A DNA stretch of 25,482 bases, taken from the IMG/VR virus record IMGVR_UViG_3300025127_000244, positions 1 to 25,482 of that record. One strand, written 5' to 3'. The stretch comes from a virus. The position numbers and the translations under genes are program-made. Within the stretch, counting starts at the first letter, position 1; every line of letters starts with the position of its first letter. Under the pieces are notes generated by a model, which saw only the letters and a program-made list of their open reading frames with translations, did no database searches and was not told the DNA's origin. Shown one piece after another: positions 1,955-25,156 of the stretch.

Positions 1955-2686
1955 GTGTCTGCGCTGATTGCCGGACACATGGTAATGGCTTCAGCATCAG
2001 CCATTTACGGTTTTTATCGAATATTAAGGCCATTTAGGATAGGGATTTATGGCCCATCAATGGTAGGTAAAACCACTTTAGACCAATATTTAACAGTACC
2101 AGGGGATATAGATCCAATTCCGTTAAGTCTTAGAACCGCACACCCAAAAGCAAAAACTCAAACGGGTTATCGTAAAATAAAAGAAACAAGAAAACAACTA
2201 AGATTAATCAAAGTAAAAAAACCCGTTACAACAACTGATATTGGCGGTGATTCAATATTCCGCAATCTTTGGGTAGATGATATGTTCTCCAGAAATGTAG
2301 AGTTAGTAATCTATATGATAGACCATAGAGCATTAACATCTCCACAATTTGTTAGTGATGCAGTTGCAGGTTTGACATATCTAGTGGATAATATAGTCAA
2401 AAAAGACGTATCAAAGAATATATCTCGTAAAGCAAAAAGACGGGTCAAAAATTATCGGCCTAAATTATTTTGTTTGATGATTAACAAAATGGATATATGG
2501 TGGGATGAAAGAGCCGCTTACCTTTGGAAAATGGGAATACAAAAAGAACACCCAATAGTTAGGCCATTTAGAGAATCATTGAAAAGATTGCGAAAAGCAG
2601 GGTATAGAGCCGAGATTATGGCTATGTCATCTCAGCATGGTATTAATGTAGAAAAGGGATTAATTGAGTTATTAGACTCTCTTTAA
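1955..2686 (+). CDS. Ras-like small GTPase, possibly membrane-anchored
   Basis: 243 residues from a GTG start (1955) after AGGTGGTAAT. The G motifs are present in order: G1/Walker A GPSMVGKTT (33-41), G3 DIGG (95-98), G4 NKMD (177-180) and a G5-like SSQHG (225-229). The gap between G1 and G3 is Lys/Thr-rich and would hold switch I. This set is diagnostic of the TRAFAC Ras/Arf-type GTPase fold, which cycles between GTP and GDP forms to switch partners. Residues 2-27 are hydrophobic/aromatic (about IAGHMVMASASAIYGFYRIL) and could anchor it in the membrane. The two preceding genes encode membrane proteins, so membrane work is likely. Small GTPases are uncommon in tailed-virus genomes, and the substrate is unknown. 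The fold is secure; the role is not. Confidence 0.85.
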   Translation: MSALIAGHMVMASASAIYGFYRILRPFRIGIYGPSMVGKTTLDQYLTVPGDIDPIPLSLRTAHPKAKTQTGYRKIKETRKQLRLIKVKKPVTTTDIGGDSIFRNLWVDDMFSRNVELVIYMIDHRALTSPQFVSDAVAGLTYLVDNIVKKDVSKNISRKAKRRVKNYRPKLFCLMINKMDIWWDERAAYLWKMGIQKEHPIVRPFRESLKRLRKAGYRAEIMAMSSQHGINVEKGLIELLDSL

Positions 2687-2714
2687 TTAAAAAACCTTTA
2701 TCATGTTGTCAGTC
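2682..2714 (+). promoter_or_regulatory. TATA-like promoter for the gene at 2715
   Basis: TTTAATTAA (2682-2690), followed by AAAA, overlaps the end of the GTPase gene and is centred 29 bases before ATG 2715. No ribosome binding site lies before that ATG. The distance fits a leaderless archaeal transcript starting at or near the start codon. The bases just before and after the ATG repeat those at 1099-1123. Confidence 0.45.
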
Positions 2715-2730
2715 ATGGCAGGGCTAATGG
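2706..2730 (+). repeat. Copy 2 of the 25-base start-codon repeat
   Basis: Matches 1099-1123 at 23 of 25 bases, in register with the ATG at 2715. The shared part includes the first five codons of the gene (M-A-G-L-M) and about nine bases upstream. Confidence 0.7.
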
Positions 2731-3683
2731 CGTATAATTTAAGCGGGTTCAATCCCCTCAACGCTTTCACCAGTTCTGGTATTACTTTAAGGGGTTTAGA
2801 CGATGAACAATTACGCCTTATGTCTGCCCAAACTGGTATAAGTTATGAGTTGTTAAAATCGCAACAAAGGGCTGAAATGGCTAGTGCTGGCTCAACCGGA
2901 GATATAGGAGAGGAACAATTAATACCGACAGTAGAGGTTCAATTGAAGTCTAATCCTAAAAAACCACATAAAGCACGAAAGCAAAATATCAAGATGTTAA
3001 GAAAAGCATTGAGGCCACCTAATTACAACTTAGGTTTCTTCAAAGTTTATCGTTACAATGCAGCGCATGAATGTGCTTGTTGTGGTGTAGATATTAGACG
3101 TTTTTTAGAAGGCGACAATGCCTATGCCCACATTGTAGATGAAAAAACTGGTTTGTCATTAGCAGACATATATTGGTTTGATGAAGATACAGGAAATGCA
3201 AAAAAGCCGTTGGCGAGAACGCATGGCGATCATGGCGATGAGATGAACAGTTCATTATGCCCTGCTCATCTGCACATATTCCATACCTTGAAATCTTTGG
3301 TTCAAGAACATGAGATGGCTGAACAAGGCTTTAGAGCCACTTCTAAAGGAACAAAATTCACAAAAATACCTGGTGTCAAAACGCTAATGGGTGGCTCAGG
3401 CAAAGCAAAAAATAGAAGCACCCCTGAATCTTTATTAAAATATGAACAGTTTTTTTCAATGATACATCAAGATGCACAGTATAGTAAAGGCGTAACATTG
3501 AATCAATTACCTAATCCCGTATCTGGCGTAGTTGATATAGTGCAGGTTACATTTGATTTACGGGCTATTCAAGCCGAATCTATGATGGCTCAAAGAAATG
3601 CTATGGGAACTGGTGTTAATATGCAAAGTGTCATGAATAATGCTATAACAAGTACGGCAGTAGAACAACAAATAACGGAGTGA
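2715..3683 (+). CDS. Cys/His-rich protein with possible treble-clef/HNH-like zinc site
   Basis: 322 residues from ATG 2715. An in-frame ATG at 2703 exists, but 2715 sits correctly in the start-codon repeat and at the expected distance from the TATA-like element. After a disordered, basic N-terminal part (about 1-105) there is HECACCG (C120, C122, C123), and about 50 residues later a THGDHGDEMNSS stretch leads into LCPAHLHIFH (C182, H185, H187, H190). Paired Cys then Cys/His around a His/Asp/Asn-rich segment recalls treble-clef zinc folds including HNH nucleases, but the HNH signature is not clean. The C-terminal region (about 285-322) is Met/Gln/Asn-rich. It is followed seven bases later by the Met/Gln-rich protein. 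Role unknown. Confidence 0.6.
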   Translation: MAGLMAYNLSGFNPLNAFTSSGITLRGLDDEQLRLMSAQTGISYELLKSQQRAEMASAGSTGDIGEEQLIPTVEVQLKSNPKKPHKARKQNIKMLRKALRPPNYNLGFFKVYRYNAAHECACCGVDIRRFLEGDNAYAHIVDEKTGLSLADIYWFDEDTGNAKKPLARTHGDHGDEMNSSLCPAHLHIFHTLKSLVQEHEMAEQGFRATSKGTKFTKIPGVKTLMGGSGKAKNRSTPESLLKYEQFFSMIHQDAQYSKGVTLNQLPNPVSGVVDIVQVTFDLRAIQAESMMAQRNAMGTGVNMQSVMNNAITSTAVEQQITE

Positions 3684-17028: not shown

Positions 17029-17735
17029 TGGCACAGTGGTTTAACCCAAAAGAACAAACTCAAGAAGGACTATTGCTAAAAGAAGTTGAGGCTTTATTGA
17101 AAGAAGTCAAAAACAAGAAAAAGGCAGACTTAGACAAAGATGGAAAACTGTCAGGTTATGAAACTAAAAGAGCAAAAGCAATTGAAGCATCAATGAAAGG
17201 TAAAACTTACAAGTCCGATAGAGGAAATAGAACCCCTCCTGAATTGCCAACACCTAAAGGTGATAAAAATAAAATTGACAAGACTACTGAGATTCTACAA
17301 GAAATGGGGATTATCAAGGCTCAACAAGAGCCAAGTGTTAGCGATTCTTTCCCCGAATTTTACAATGTAGACGGTGGAGAAAGAGTTAGAGCAAGAGGAT
17401 ATACTACAAATGGAATGTTTCCTAATTGGAATGATGGTCCTAAAAAGTCTATTGTAAGTGAGAAAGGTGATATGTTTGCTTTTGCTAAAACTGGGTATGG
17501 CGCAGACGGCACAGGATTGCACATGCACTATAATGATAAAGGCGGTACGAGAGCAACGCCAAATATTGATTCAGTTGAGCAAAAGTTAAACGCATTAACA
17601 AAACAGTTTGGCAGTAATAATCAAGGCATTATTGGAGAAATAGAAGGTCTTTTGAAGCAAGTTAGAAAAGAACTTGAAAAAAATACAACTTGTAGCGATT
17701 GTAATTCCGAAGATGGTTGCCCTTCCTGTAAGTGA
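17028..17735 (+). CDS. EF-hand calcium-binding protein with C-terminal Cys cluster
   Basis: 235 residues from ATG 17028, with CAGGTGA as ribosome binding site (an in-frame ATG at 16995 is less likely). A canonical EF-hand loop is present: D34-L-D-K-D-G-K-L-S-G-Y-E45, with ligands at positions 1, 3, 5, 9 and 12, Gly at 6 and Leu at 8, preceded by an amphipathic helix (LLLKEVEALLKEVKNKKKA) and followed by another (TKRAKAIEASMKG). Residues about 95-180 are polar, with FPEFYNVDGGERVRARGY. The protein ends C222-x2-C225 and C231-x2-C234, probably zinc-binding. Calcium could stabilise it in the virion. The protein is otherwise unrecognised. Confidence 0.65.
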   Translation: MAQWFNPKEQTQEGLLLKEVEALLKEVKNKKKADLDKDGKLSGYETKRAKAIEASMKGKTYKSDRGNRTPPELPTPKGDKNKIDKTTEILQEMGIIKAQQEPSVSDSFPEFYNVDGGERVRARGYTTNGMFPNWNDGPKKSIVSEKGDMFAFAKTGYGADGTGLHMHYNDKGGTRATPNIDSVEQKLNALTKQFGSNNQGIIGEIEGLLKQVRKELEKNTTCSDCNSEDGCPSCK

Positions 17736-17746
17736 GGGGGAATCAA

Positions 17747-20700
17747 ATGACTACGGATTTAGACCGTCTTAGAACCGATGCAATAATAGCAATACACAAA
17801 GCATCGGATTATGATTATTCTAAGTTTGTAGAAGCAGTAGATAAAGAAAATCTCAGCAAAGAGGATATGGCTACTTTGATGGGAATGACCCCTCAAATGC
17901 CTGAATATCGAATGACTGATTTATCAGCCCCTATGTCAGTAGCATCTATGCAAATACCAGATTACAAAGATTTCATGGCGGGGCATACTAAAATATCTAA
18001 TAGCCCATTAAACGATTGGATGGTAGCAAGCCCTGATAATCAGTTTGGAGGGCATCACCCATTCGGTTTTGATAGCAACAGTTGTCCTTTACTTCATGGT
18101 GCATCTTGGGGAGATCCCGCTTATGCAAGTCATTTAGAACATGCAATGGATTTTTTAAAAGAAATGTCTGAGCGTGAAAGGACAATAAATTATGATAAAG
18201 ACGTGTATGGCGACCCAAAAGAGTCAATGTTTGATTTAATGACAAGAGATAGGAACAGATACAGACTCAAAAGTGATGAAGAATATCGGGCAGGTAAAAA
18301 ACAAGAGTGGGCTAAATCTCTTGGACTTTTACCCTATTTGTTTGGCTTAGAGTATCAAACACCAGACCAAAGGCAACATTTCTTAGAGATAATAAGAAAA
18401 ATGGCGGCAACTGAAAATATGCTATCTCCTGATTCAAGGGTATTACAAAACAAAATGCAAGAAAAAGCAGGTATCTCATGGGGCAGGGCTATGCGCTCAT
18501 TTAGAGCAAGAATGATACCAATATTACAATGGTGGCAAAGAGCAAGCGACAGGCATGGCCCTGTATCTCCACCAATGCCTATGTCCGATTTCATAAAAAG
18601 CGATTCTCCTGATGCGGATTTACATTATGTTAGTCCATACATAAACGATACAGCAGGGATAGTGCCAAGTCATACTTATCACTGGTGGGATTTGTTTCAA
18701 CCCTGGGGAGGCGTAGGCAGGGATTCTAATTCACTACATGATATGTTCAAGCAAAGTTATCCGAAAATATTTGGCGGCAGTTGGTTAGATGATGCTTTAT
18801 TCAATCAATCTAATTCATTGTTAATGCAATATCAAACAGATGGAGGGAGTCATTTTCCTCAGTTTATCAATCAAAATCAAGGACACCCATTAGCAACTAC
18901 ATTATCTTCATCTTTCAATGATGCTGATTTCTTTGAAAGGCGCAGGGCAAATTGGAGTCATTCTTCAAACCTACATTTCTTACACCCTAGCGAAGTAAAA
19001 GGCGCAGGTGGCAGAATGATTGTACCCTCAGACCAAATGATGCTTAGTAGTTTAGGCCGTTCTTTAGCAGGTCAAGCAGATATGGGTTCTCCAAGAATTG
19101 GAATGTTTAGAGAAAATCACCCATCTTCAACTCAGCCCTACTGGAACTCTCATAATGCACTATTCGCTGCAAACGATATGCACTTAGGCAAGGTCATGAA
19201 GAATATGGCTCAACAAGTAATGAAACAGTTTGGCCCCAATGTTCTAAATCCACAAGACCCTACAAATATGGAACAATCTACATTAGCACGTGGTAATCTA
19301 CAACAGTTGGCTGCTGCGGCTGATTTTGCTATGAAGAAAATGACTATGGGCGATGATTACAAAGCCTTAGTTCCTGTTATGGGTATGATGGGAATGCCAA
19401 CAGATGAAATTAGAAGTATTGGTGCAGTACACCCTAATTCTCACGCTACATCTCCCCCAGTGTATAATACGGGAAATACTCATCTTTGGGGTCATGAAAT
19501 GCCAGCAACATTAACTTGGAAGCATGACCCTAAAGGAGATGGACTTTCTTTTGGTCTTGCTGAAGAACCATTTACTGTTATGCAAAGAACCGTTCATGAG
19601 AATAAAATTAGGAACATATTACCTTCTTTGTTAGATACAAATGTTCAGCCAAAACAAAATGACATATTTGCATTAAGCGCATTGAATAATATGGGCTTAT
19701 CTCCTATTGCTACTGGTTCATTAACCAAATCTGCAAAAGATGATTATGAGCCTACTGGTGTTTTCAAAACAAAAATCATACCCGCTTATACTATCCACAA
19801 ACTAGAAGATATGAATAAATTGAGAGGATTTTCAGGCAATTGGATAGTGCAAAAGAAACCAATGGGTAAAAGAATGTTCATAGAAAAGAAAGGTAATAGT
19901 TTGAAAAACTCAAACCTACCATCTTCTATTAAGAAAGATTTACGAGAAATAAATGGCGATTTTGTATTTGATGCCTATTTAGATGGAGATAAGTTATCAG
20001 TAGTTGATTTATTAGTACACAAAGGAACTGATTTACATCAAGAACCATTAGAAGATAGAGTAAATGCCCTAAGAACATTATATGATTCTACTGAGAACAT
20101 TAATTTTCCAATGCCTAACAATTGTGTATCTGTCGATGCAGACGGGTTAGACAAAGCAATACAGAATTTTGATGATGATGAATTGTTTGTCCGTGATGCA
20201 CTTTCAACATTTATGAAAGAAAAAGAAGTTCACCCTAAATGGATAACCTATGCAAAAGAAAGCATAGCCAAGTCATTTTACCCCCCAATGCCGGAGTTAA
20301 TTGTAAAAACAGACCAAATCACATTATGCTATCCTTCAATATACGATCCGGTTATAGTAAAAGGTGATTTTGCAGATGGGCAATTCCAGTTATCAAAACT
20401 AGAAGGAAATGAAGCATTGTTTGAAAAAGCGATTAGAGATATACCACTTTGGGGTTCTATTGCTGTTAATCTCATGAAAGAAGCAGTTATGTCTGGTGAT
20501 GTATCTTCACCAATTCATTCAACTCCTAAGAGAAAGCGGCCAAGAAAACTAAAATTGGTTAAACAAACTACATTGAAAGCCCCATCTATAATAGGTGAAG
20601 ATGAGAAAGGCCATAATGTAGGAGATATAATGCAGCATGTTAGAAATGCAATACGTGAAGATGATACTGCTAAAACTACAAAACAATTATTGAGGGCTGT

Positions 20701-21133
20701 AAAAGGATTGAATACTAAGATGTTGGATATGTATCATGGCGAATATGGGATTGAAAAGACCCCCGATGGCAAAAGATGGACTGTAAATGAAGCGATAGAT
20801 GATGATGTGATTGAAAATATGTTTCCTCGTATGAATCGTATATCTCCCGATGGAGGCGCATATCCTGGTCTTGAGGGAGATATTACTGCGCCAAGAGGCC
20901 CTACTAAATTATTAGATGATTCTGCCACTACCTTTTATGACCCAAGAATCAATGAAACAACAGAAAAAATACCAATGATGCACTTACAGGTAAAAGATAC
21001 CGAGGAAGATGAGGTTACTCTTGATGTTGAAGATGGCCGAGCAACTTTGAGAATGCCACAAAAAACTAAGCAACAAATGGCTGACGAAGAGGAAGTTGAG
21101 GCTACTGATAGATCCGAGGCTGAAGAGTTTTAG
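17747..21133 (+). CDS. Very large protein with a degenerate DNA ligase-like domain
   Basis: 1128 residues from ATG 17747, chosen over GTG 17732 because GAGGGGG sits nine bases before it. Residues 1-640 are unrecognised and rich in His, Trp, Met and Asn (for example SHTYHWWDLFQPWGGVGRD). Residues about 665-780 resemble the nucleotidyltransferase domain of ATP-dependent DNA ligases: WIVQKKPMGKRMFIEKKG contains K704-P-M-G-K-R709 (consensus KxDGxR), GDFVFDAYLDGDKLSVVDLL (737-756) matches the motif III strand, and HKGTDLHQEPLEDRVNALR follows the family pattern. The motif I Asp is Met and the motif III Glu is absent (D742-A-Y), so ligation is doubtful. The C-terminus has a basic patch (about 925-935) and an acidic tail. 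It sits between connector-like genes and the protease, so it is probably a virion or assembly protein. Confidence 0.65.
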   Translation: MTTDLDRLRTDAIIAIHKASDYDYSKFVEAVDKENLSKEDMATLMGMTPQMPEYRMTDLSAPMSVASMQIPDYKDFMAGHTKISNSPLNDWMVASPDNQFGGHHPFGFDSNSCPLLHGASWGDPAYASHLEHAMDFLKEMSERERTINYDKDVYGDPKESMFDLMTRDRNRYRLKSDEEYRAGKKQEWAKSLGLLPYLFGLEYQTPDQRQHFLEIIRKMAATENMLSPDSRVLQNKMQEKAGISWGRAMRSFRARMIPILQWWQRASDRHGPVSPPMPMSDFIKSDSPDADLHYVSPYINDTAGIVPSHTYHWWDLFQPWGGVGRDSNSLHDMFKQSYPKIFGGSWLDDALFNQSNSLLMQYQTDGGSHFPQFINQNQGHPLATTLSSSFNDADFFERRRANWSHSSNLHFLHPSEVKGAGGRMIVPSDQMMLSSLGRSLAGQADMGSPRIGMFRENHPSSTQPYWNSHNALFAANDMHLGKVMKNMAQQVMKQFGPNVLNPQDPTNMEQSTLARGNLQQLAAAADFAMKKMTMGDDYKALVPVMGMMGMPTDEIRSIGAVHPNSHATSPPVYNTGNTHLWGHEMPATLTWKHDPKGDGLSFGLAEEPFTVMQRTVHENKIRNILPSLLDTNVQPKQNDIFALSALNNMGLSPIATGSLTKSAKDDYEPTGVFKTKIIPAYTIHKLEDMNKLRGFSGNWIVQKKPMGKRMFIEKKGNSLKNSNLPSSIKKDLREINGDFVFDAYLDGDKLSVVDLLVHKGTDLHQEPLEDRVNALRTLYDSTENINFPMPNNCVSVDADGLDKAIQNFDDDELFVRDALSTFMKEKEVHPKWITYAKESIAKSFYPPMPELIVKTDQITLCYPSIYDPVIVKGDFADGQFQLSKLEGNEALFEKAIRDIPLWGSIAVNLMKEAVMSGDVSSPIHSTPKRKRPRKLKLVKQTTLKAPSIIGEDEKGHNVGDIMQHVRNAIREDDTAKTTKQLLRAVKGLNTKMLDMYHGEYGIEKTPDGKRWTVNEAIDDDVIENMFPRMNRISPDGGAYPGLEGDITAPRGPTKLLDDSATTFYDPRINETTEKIPMMHLQVKDTEEDEVTLDVEDGRATLRMPQKTKQQMADEEEVEATDRSEAEEF

Positions 21134-24206: not shown

Positions 24207-24587
24207 TTGGGAGTCAAAGTCCGATATACTGGGGCTAGGTCTTACTGCGAAATAACCGTTGAAGGTGTTAGGCAGGGATTCTCCAGAGATATGGTTAAGG
24301 AATTACCTACTGATTATGTAGAAAGGCATATACGCCCACAAATTGAGATAGGCGGTTCTAAAGCATGGGTTATTGTTGATGATACTGAAACTAAATCAAA
24401 GGCTATGAAAGCCGTTGTTGAAGAAACAGTATCTAAGCCTGTTGCAGAAGATCCAGTTGAAGAAACAACAGATGTTGATTATTCCTCAATGACTAGATTT
24501 CAATTGATGGCTATTGCTAAAGAACGTGGTTTTACAGTAAAGAACACTACCAAGAAGGCAGAACTTGTTGAGATGCTAAGTGAGTAG
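24207..24587 (+). CDS. Small protein with C-terminal HeH/SAP-like domain (TTG start)
   Basis: 126 residues. The start is TTG 24207 after AAGGGGGC, giving M-G-V-K-V-R-Y; no ATG gives the same N-terminal strand. Residues 1-55 are a small beta domain (VRYTGARSYCEITVEGVRQG) and 60-90 an acidic linker. The end, SSMTRFQLMAIAKERGFTVK (about 92-111) plus TTKKAELVEMLSE, fits the helix-extended loop-helix (HeH/SAP/LEM-like) pattern, which occurs on several phage structural proteins and can bind DNA or protein. The position after capsid and decoration genes suggests a head-tail joining or head protein. Confidence 0.6.
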   Translation: MGVKVRYTGARSYCEITVEGVRQGFSRDMVKELPTDYVERHIRPQIEIGGSKAWVIVDDTETKSKAMKAVVEETVSKPVAEDPVEETTDVDYSSMTRFQLMAIAKERGFTVKNTTKKAELVEMLSE

Positions 24588-24598
24588 GGGATGATATA

Positions 24599-25156
24599 AT
24601 GTCATCAAAAAATAACATTCCGACTGATGTTAATGATGGCAATTTCTATTTAAGTAGAGCGAGATGCAATAGACGAACTCTTGTTTTAAATCCAGATAGT
24701 GCAACTAGCCATACTGCGGTCACAAACTTGAACGGCAAAATTACTCAAGTAGTAGTTGATTATAGTTCATTAATACCTTTACAATCGGGTTCAGGTGTGG
24801 GTCATTTTCAAATCTTTAGCGATGTTCAAAGAGTGCATAATACCAATTTGATACCTTATCACAAACCAATAGACGATATTGATTTAACTTTGACTCAAGA
24901 CCAATCAATTTTAGTGTTAGATGTAACGCCTGGTTCGGATCAACAAGATAGGGGCATTTTTCCAGTTTTTTTTAATATGGTTTCCGATGGGGCAGGGCAA
25001 CCTGTTCTTACAACTGAGGCGCAAAATACTGCGATTGGAAAAACATCTTGGAATGGGCTAGTTCATGGTGATGTAAAATTTAGTTTTACATTAACAGGTT
25101 CAACCCCATTACCTGCTGATGGTCAAGGTGTGAAGATAACAATCTATCTTGAATGA
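24599..25156 (+). CDS. Beta-rich putative virion protein
   Basis: 185 residues from ATG 24599, preceded by GGGGATGATATA. The predicted protein is beta-rich and soluble, with segments RRTLVLNPDSA, ITQVVVDYSSLIPLQSGSG, QSILVLDVTPG and a final VKFSFTLTGSTPLPADGQG. No family is recognised. It sits in the post-capsid block and is separated from the next gene by 49 bases without a gene. A structural role such as head-tail connector or tail component is inferred from context only. Confidence 0.6.
   Translation: MSSKNNIPTDVNDGNFYLSRARCNRRTLVLNPDSATSHTAVTNLNGKITQVVVDYSSLIPLQSGSGVGHFQIFSDVQRVHNTNLIPYHKPIDDIDLTLTQDQSILVLDVTPGSDQQDRGIFPVFFNMVSDGAGQPVLTTEAQNTAIGKTSWNGLVHGDVKFSFTLTGSTPLPADGQGVKITIYLE

Follow-up and report, generated by a model that had tools for sequence, protein, structure and literature searches.

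Membrane-shaping small GTPases are regarded as cellular tools, and the viral examples come from giant viruses of eukaryotes. What, then, is a small GTPase doing in the genome of a tailed virus? The question is raised by the stretch of DNA analysed here (the window), a 25-kb fragment of 25,482 nt corresponding to positions 1 to 25,482 of IMG/VR record IMGVR_UViG_3300025127_000244. A preliminary description had proposed that one of its genes encodes a complete Ras-like GTPase with a hydrophobic N-terminus and that this acts, with the products of the two membrane-protein genes upstream, as a membrane-bound switch. The gene lies within a block of five (Table 1), which is found in two settings, upstream of the terminase genes as in the window (window type) and, in a second group of viruses, following the capsid gene (second type).

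Table 1. Genes of the conserved block and the gene that follows it in the window.
Product	Position	Strand	Remarks
2-TM membrane protein, 150 aa, charged C-terminal helix	1259..1711	+	First block gene
1-TM membrane protein, 74 aa	1720..1944	+	TM segment 37-55, Kyte-Doolittle mean 2.07
Small GTPase, N-terminal hydrophobic helix	1955..2686	+	GTG start, 243 aa
Zn-motif protein, 326 aa, CxxC...CPxH	2703..3683	+	True start may be ATG at 2715
Helical protein, 198 aa	3690..4286	+	Fifth block gene
2-TM membrane protein, 80 aa	4283..4525	+	TM segments 29-47, 55-73

The GTPase motifs of the window protein are GPSMVGKTT (G1, residues 33-41), DIGG (G3, 95-98), NKMD (G4, 177-180) and a G5-like SSQHG (225-229). 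Their order is correct, as the preliminary description had it. The spacing, which had also been called correct, is expanded, with 56 residues from K39 to D95 and 82 from D95 to N177; the spacing in Arf and Ras is shorter. Across 46 homologues, with identities that reach down to 39-40%, residues G33, G38, K39, T40, T41, D95, G98, N177, K178, D180 and G229 are invariant, and most motif residues are still invariant in 32 diverse sequences after the addition of relatives of about 28-29% identity. The distant relatives (~29% identical) have the canonical SAK at G5. The consensus for G3 across the family is D-x-[GA]-G. The position after DIGG usually holds the catalytic Gln. Most window-type genomes outside the window clade have this Gln; the window clade has Asp there, and the second group has Glu at all 82 of its loci. 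The Trp after G3 is invariant across the family. The gene is under strong purifying selection, with dN/dS values among close pairs of 0.017-0.107, mostly 0.02-0.06. Given the conserved motifs and the dN/dS of 0.017 for the window/L014 pair, the motif match is not due to chance. One contig, G235 (the contig of L234), has a GTPase frame at 24365-25075 with a single in-frame TGA, reflecting either a sequencing error or a decayed copy.

Residues 2-24 of the GTPase are predicted to form a helix, whose hydrophobicity in the window is only moderate and indeed borderline (best 19-residue Kyte-Doolittle mean of 1.31). The corresponding helix of the second-group proteins is TM-like, with a mean of 1.71.

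Alone, the window GTPase scores 15.3 bits against the Pfam Arf family (PF00025), under the cut-off of 22.3. Since the single sequence falls below the Pfam cut-offs, homologues were gathered before the profile work. A search with the protein alone found 12 viral loci and one with a profile 56; a wider round gave 437 more distant candidates, 80 of which were retained. PF00025 is the most frequently matched Pfam family (28/46 members at E≤0.1, best 1.6e-4). For SRP receptor beta (PF09439), which like the viral protein combines an N-terminal membrane helix with a GTPase, no member scores over the cut-off and 8 of the 46 match at E≤0.1 (best 0.01). The GTPase profile matches PDB entry 8oun ('GTP-binding protein'), which we take to be an Asgard Arf-related GTPase, with an E-value of 1.2e-6 and an alignment that covers the N-terminal helix and continues through G3. 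Further profile matches are Arl8 and Rab33B. Arf and Arf-like proteins and 8oun/8oum have a G3 region of the DxGGQ...W type, which the viral GTPase follows in its Trp and, in most window-type genomes, in its Gln; they also have a membrane helix at the same N-terminal position and are collinear with the viral protein from this helix to G3. Unlike Arf, the viral protein has insertions before G3 and before G4 and often has Asp or Glu in place of the Gln. A structure model based on the 46-sequence alignment (pLDDT 81.8, pTM 0.81) superseded a poor one from 12 sequences (pLDDT 65). With this model Foldseek returned Rab, Rho and Ras structures with a probability of 1.00 and E-values of about 1e-6. 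The TM-scores of these matches, normalised by query length, lie at 0.39-0.49, a modest level that the inserts and the added helix would lead one to expect. Profile and structure searches both uphold the earlier Ras-like assignment, within the TRAFAC GTPases. Judged by its motifs and modelled fold the window protein is a TRAFAC extended Ras-like small GTPase, predicted to bind and hydrolyse GTP, and the profiles point toward the Arf-type GTPases.

Such proteins had been described as rare in tailed viruses, and our searches agree with this. PHROGs, PADLOC and NCBIfam hold no informative family for the window GTPase, and a direct protein search with the GTPases of both virus groups against 50,697 phage records gave no match at E≤1. 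A search of a viral structure library at E≤0.001 returned named matches that are all proteins of eukaryotic giant viruses, nearly all annotated as GTPases, together with a few matches without names, which cannot be judged. These collections yielded no further tailed virus encoding a GTPase of this kind. The giant viruses likewise encode small GTPases of the Rab/Ras kind, and these are the top named structural matches, but they have eukaryotic-type domains with 8-18% identity to the GTPase described here; to our knowledge, they are not part of any conserved block of this kind in a structural region. The GTPase is unmentioned in two magrovirus papers (PMC10160649, PMC5332604) and in a survey of archaeal tailed viruses (PMC8651126), though it may have been annotated earlier in Philosof 2017 or Prabhu 2025.

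The families of the terminase, portal, protease and capsid proteins, as matched in PHROGs, are those of archaeal tailed viruses, the capsid being of the HK97 type and the portal and large terminase being those of archaeal tailed viruses; the capsid protein is 32% identical over 99% to that of the Druskaviridae. Chaperonin genes, which have been reported from Poseidoniales viruses (PMC5332604), are present in 3/12 related records, the other records possibly being fragments. The host link comes from the Poseidoniales single-cell assembly AG-422-I20, in which a relative of the window virus is present as a 106,262-bp contig with the block, terminase, portal and capsid genes ordered as in the window. 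From its gene content and this relative, the window virus would seem to be a magrovirus-like tailed virus of an uncultured Poseidoniales host. The two other matches in the genome collections lie in MAGs labelled Maricaulis and Cytophagaceae (archaeal-virus contigs in such MAGs: L071, L072, L074 and L075) and are most likely misbinned viral contigs.

A recent origin of the gene from the host, which had been considered earlier, is not borne out. Searched at E≤0.001, only one of 194 Poseidoniales genomes matches the viral GTPase profile, and that match is the AG-422-I20 virus contig itself. OapB was found in 0/60 Poseidoniales genomes, Arf in 0/40 and Roc in 0/60, and the profile of ArvA, an archaeal GTPase discussed below, matches one of 146, over 35 residues of G1 only. 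The Pfam families were recovered from control genomes, which shows that the searches work. The Poseidoniales genomes searched, many of which are likely to be partial (their completeness is not given), are thus essentially without homologues of the viral GTPase, ArvA, OapB, Arf and Roc.

How general the gene is among these viruses was assessed on contigs of at least 41 kb chosen by their major capsid protein alone (n=48). The GTPase is present in 37 of them, the worst E-value being 3.7e-81. In the window-type contigs worked through, the capsid gene lies about 21-24 kb downstream of the GTPase, and by the ranges of the individual contigs all 11 that lack it have no more than 16 kb upstream of the capsid gene. 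The negatives are therefore not evaluable and the GTPase is found in 37/37 evaluable contigs. It appears to be a core gene in all Poseidoniales tailed viruses of this kind. The divergence of the GTPase is correlated with that of the capsid protein (Mantel r 0.88, 92 genomes), which indicates that it is inherited together with the virion genes. One record, G237 (IMGVR_UViG_3300021958_000021, 184,733 bp; L105), has two different GTPase copies, at 67,182 and 159,021. As these are ~92 kb, or one genome length, apart, the record is probably an assembly that fused two related viruses, or else a concatemer.

The preliminary description was also right that the two upstream membrane-protein genes belong with the GTPase. 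Over 142 loci the order of the block is fixed, namely 2-TM protein, 1-TM protein, GTPase, Zn-motif protein and helical protein; as these loci were found via the GTPase, the counts for its partners measure synteny and not prevalence. The 2-TM family is upstream of the GTPase at 135/135 evaluable loci (57/57 window-type and 78/78 second-type), and the window member has hydrophobic segments at residues 30-48 and 68-86. The 1-TM gene is present at 133 of 137 (54/58 and 79/79), with a median gap to the GTPase gene of 10 bases in the window type and 1 base in the second type. Within the window the gaps between the 2-TM, 1-TM and GTPase genes are 8-10 bases and GGTGGTAAT is found ahead of the starts of both the 1-TM and the GTPase genes, which fits a single transcript. 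Downstream, the Zn-motif gene follows at 135/135 evaluable loci (60/60 and 75/75). Residues C124, C186, P187 and H189 of its product are invariant and C127 is present in at least 90% of 20 sequences; compared with solved structures it gave chance-level matches only. The helical-protein gene is present at all 128 evaluable loci (60/60 and 68/68), and the gene for the 80-aa 2-TM protein is the usual next gene at most window-type loci and in that arrangement only. The window-type block directly precedes the terminase genes, while the second-group block lies a few small genes past the capsid gene. Comparison of the two virus groups with hhalign shows the GTPase (E 4e-33), Zn-motif (6e-9) and helical (1e-6) proteins to be homologous, and the TM proteins have a similar layout with weak homology (E 0.005 and 0.02).

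A 20-base sequence, AGTCATGGCAGGGCTRATGG, is present at both 1104-1123 and 2711-2730 of the window (2 copies against 0 expected), where it surrounds two start codons, those of a 52-aa ORF at 1108 and of the Zn-motif gene. Outside the window sequence it was found once only, in a 95%-identical relative. The 52-aa ORF (1108-1266) precedes the block on the same strand and has no Pfam match; by eye its product looks like a ribbon-helix-helix DNA-binding protein. Elsewhere, just before the gene for the head maturation protease, both the window (17732-21133) and L075 (2274-4811) encode a large protein. The L075 protein, from the second group, has an ATP-dependent DNA ligase domain (Pfam E 5e-29). Its window orthologue, alignable to it at 27% (E 8e-13), has no Pfam match and reads KPMG rather than KYDG at motif I, so that a ligase-like domain within the structural gene cluster has apparently become degenerate in the window.

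What the GTPase does can be suggested from its anchor, its partners and its position. We tentatively favour a virus-owned, membrane-anchored GTPase switch that acts on the host membrane in late assembly or egress, a reading that may well be correct but falls short of being probable. The N-terminal helix would tether the GTPase to the cell membrane of the Poseidoniales host, on whose inner face the TM proteins may recruit it. Binding of GTP would shift the switch regions and so bend the membrane or gather the TM proteins into clusters. The Zn-motif protein might regulate nucleotide turnover or couple the switch to virions under assembly. The membrane would thereby be deformed locally, aiding late assembly of the virions and their escape from a host without such GTPases. 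The position of the block adjoining the structural genes suggests that expression is late. Remodelling of the host membrane, one of the roles put forward at the outset, is the best reading of the locus and the one we infer; the limited likeness to ArvA lends it some support. Counting against it are the borderline helix in the window, the restriction of the likeness to ArvA to G1 and switch I, the weak homology of the TM proteins between the virus groups and the lack of relationship of the Zn-motif and helical proteins to OapC and OapB. A bolder version, that the viruses bring a complete GTPase membrane-remodelling system into a host without one and use GTP-driven deformation for assembly or release, as a counterpart of vesiculation by Arf or ArvA, is rather unlikely.

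The location of the second-group block inside the structural genes also fits a role in virion assembly, and this is the main rival. The GTPase and its partners would then form a GTP-driven switch for head-tail assembly or packaging that sits on the membrane and does not bend it for release. Such a morphogenesis factor would account for the close neighbourhood of the capsid gene in one group and the terminase genes in the other, for the co-evolution with the capsid protein and for the universal presence of the gene. Three adjacent small membrane proteins would, however, be unusual for head-tail assembly, and the Druskaviridae, with their related major capsid protein, show no GTPase. In HVTV-1 the product of a single-TM gene, gp124, follows the capsid region, but the 41-kb structural region has no homologue of the GTPase, Zn-motif or helical proteins, and a search for the GTPase module in the regions of HVTV-1, vir519 and vir335 gave nothing above noise. 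We consider the assembly role unlikely, though a serious competitor of the membrane switch.

The likeness to ArvA raises the further possibility that the viral protein is a captured and diverged host vesiculation GTPase, hijacked for making vesicles. Deletion of ArvA (also OapA), the archaeal vesiculating GTPase, abolishes vesicle formation in Haloferax volcanii, and one of the proteins encoded in its operon, a Zn-ribbon protein, has been proposed to be a GAP (PMC10927574). In other genomes of the wider phylum, 76/292 match the viral GTPase profile with E-values of 1e-6 to 1e-3, the matches spanning residues about 15-72. OapB- and OapC-like genes accompany the GTPase gene in 9 of 11 loci retrieved, confirmed with Pfam for OapB at one locus (E 3.8e-35) and for OapC at two (5e-24, 3e-23), and these neighbours identify the cellular GTPases as ArvA. 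No cellular protein in the phylum matches the viral profile better than ArvA; the match covers G1 and switch I only, with an E-value of 7e-9 in a single hhalign comparison. Both proteins have a G1 of the form GxYGPxxxGKTTL and a switch I motif of the GxxxxIPxExR or IPxETR-like kind, and both have an N-terminal membrane helix and a gene cluster with a Zn-binding partner. The alignable stretch is, however, confined to the N-terminal quarter, ~60 residues spanning G1 and switch I, and G3 is DTPG in ArvA as against the viral consensus. The viral Zn-motif and helical proteins were tried as OapC (PF09845) and OapB (PF09846) and rejected (E 0.07-0.85). The nearest solved relatives of ArvA are Der/EngA, whereas those of the viral GTPase are of the Arf/Rab type, and the host genomes searched are essentially without ArvA. 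With a similarity that is only local, a different G3, no OapB or OapC in the block and different nearest structures, we did not assign the viral protein to ArvA. ArvA would work like it and is possibly distant kin, not the same family, and capture of a cellular ArvA is improbable.

Membrane association and restriction of the family to one lineage would also suit a membrane-bound switch that blocks competing viruses or host defence, as superinfection exclusion and counter-defence had been suggested. Genes for exclusion and anti-defence tend to be accessory and to vary between relatives. The GTPase gene is in every evaluable capsid-selected contig, is strongly constrained and syntenic beside structural genes, and has no PADLOC match, so that we have set this role aside as highly improbable. 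Least probable of all is a nucleotide-binding P-loop scaffold that hydrolyses GTP poorly, catalysis having been lost with the acidic residue that the window clade and the second group have at the Gln position. The remaining motifs are invariant and strongly constrained, the Gln is dispensable for hydrolysis in several GTPases, and Ras Q61E reportedly hydrolyses faster.

If the membrane-switch reading is true, it would mean that tailed viruses of abundant marine archaea deal with membranes in a new way, and would offer a testable entry to the question of how viruses exit uncultured marine archaea. It would bear on the spread of Arf-like switches beyond eukaryotes, and the GTPase may serve as a marker gene for these Poseidoniales viruses.
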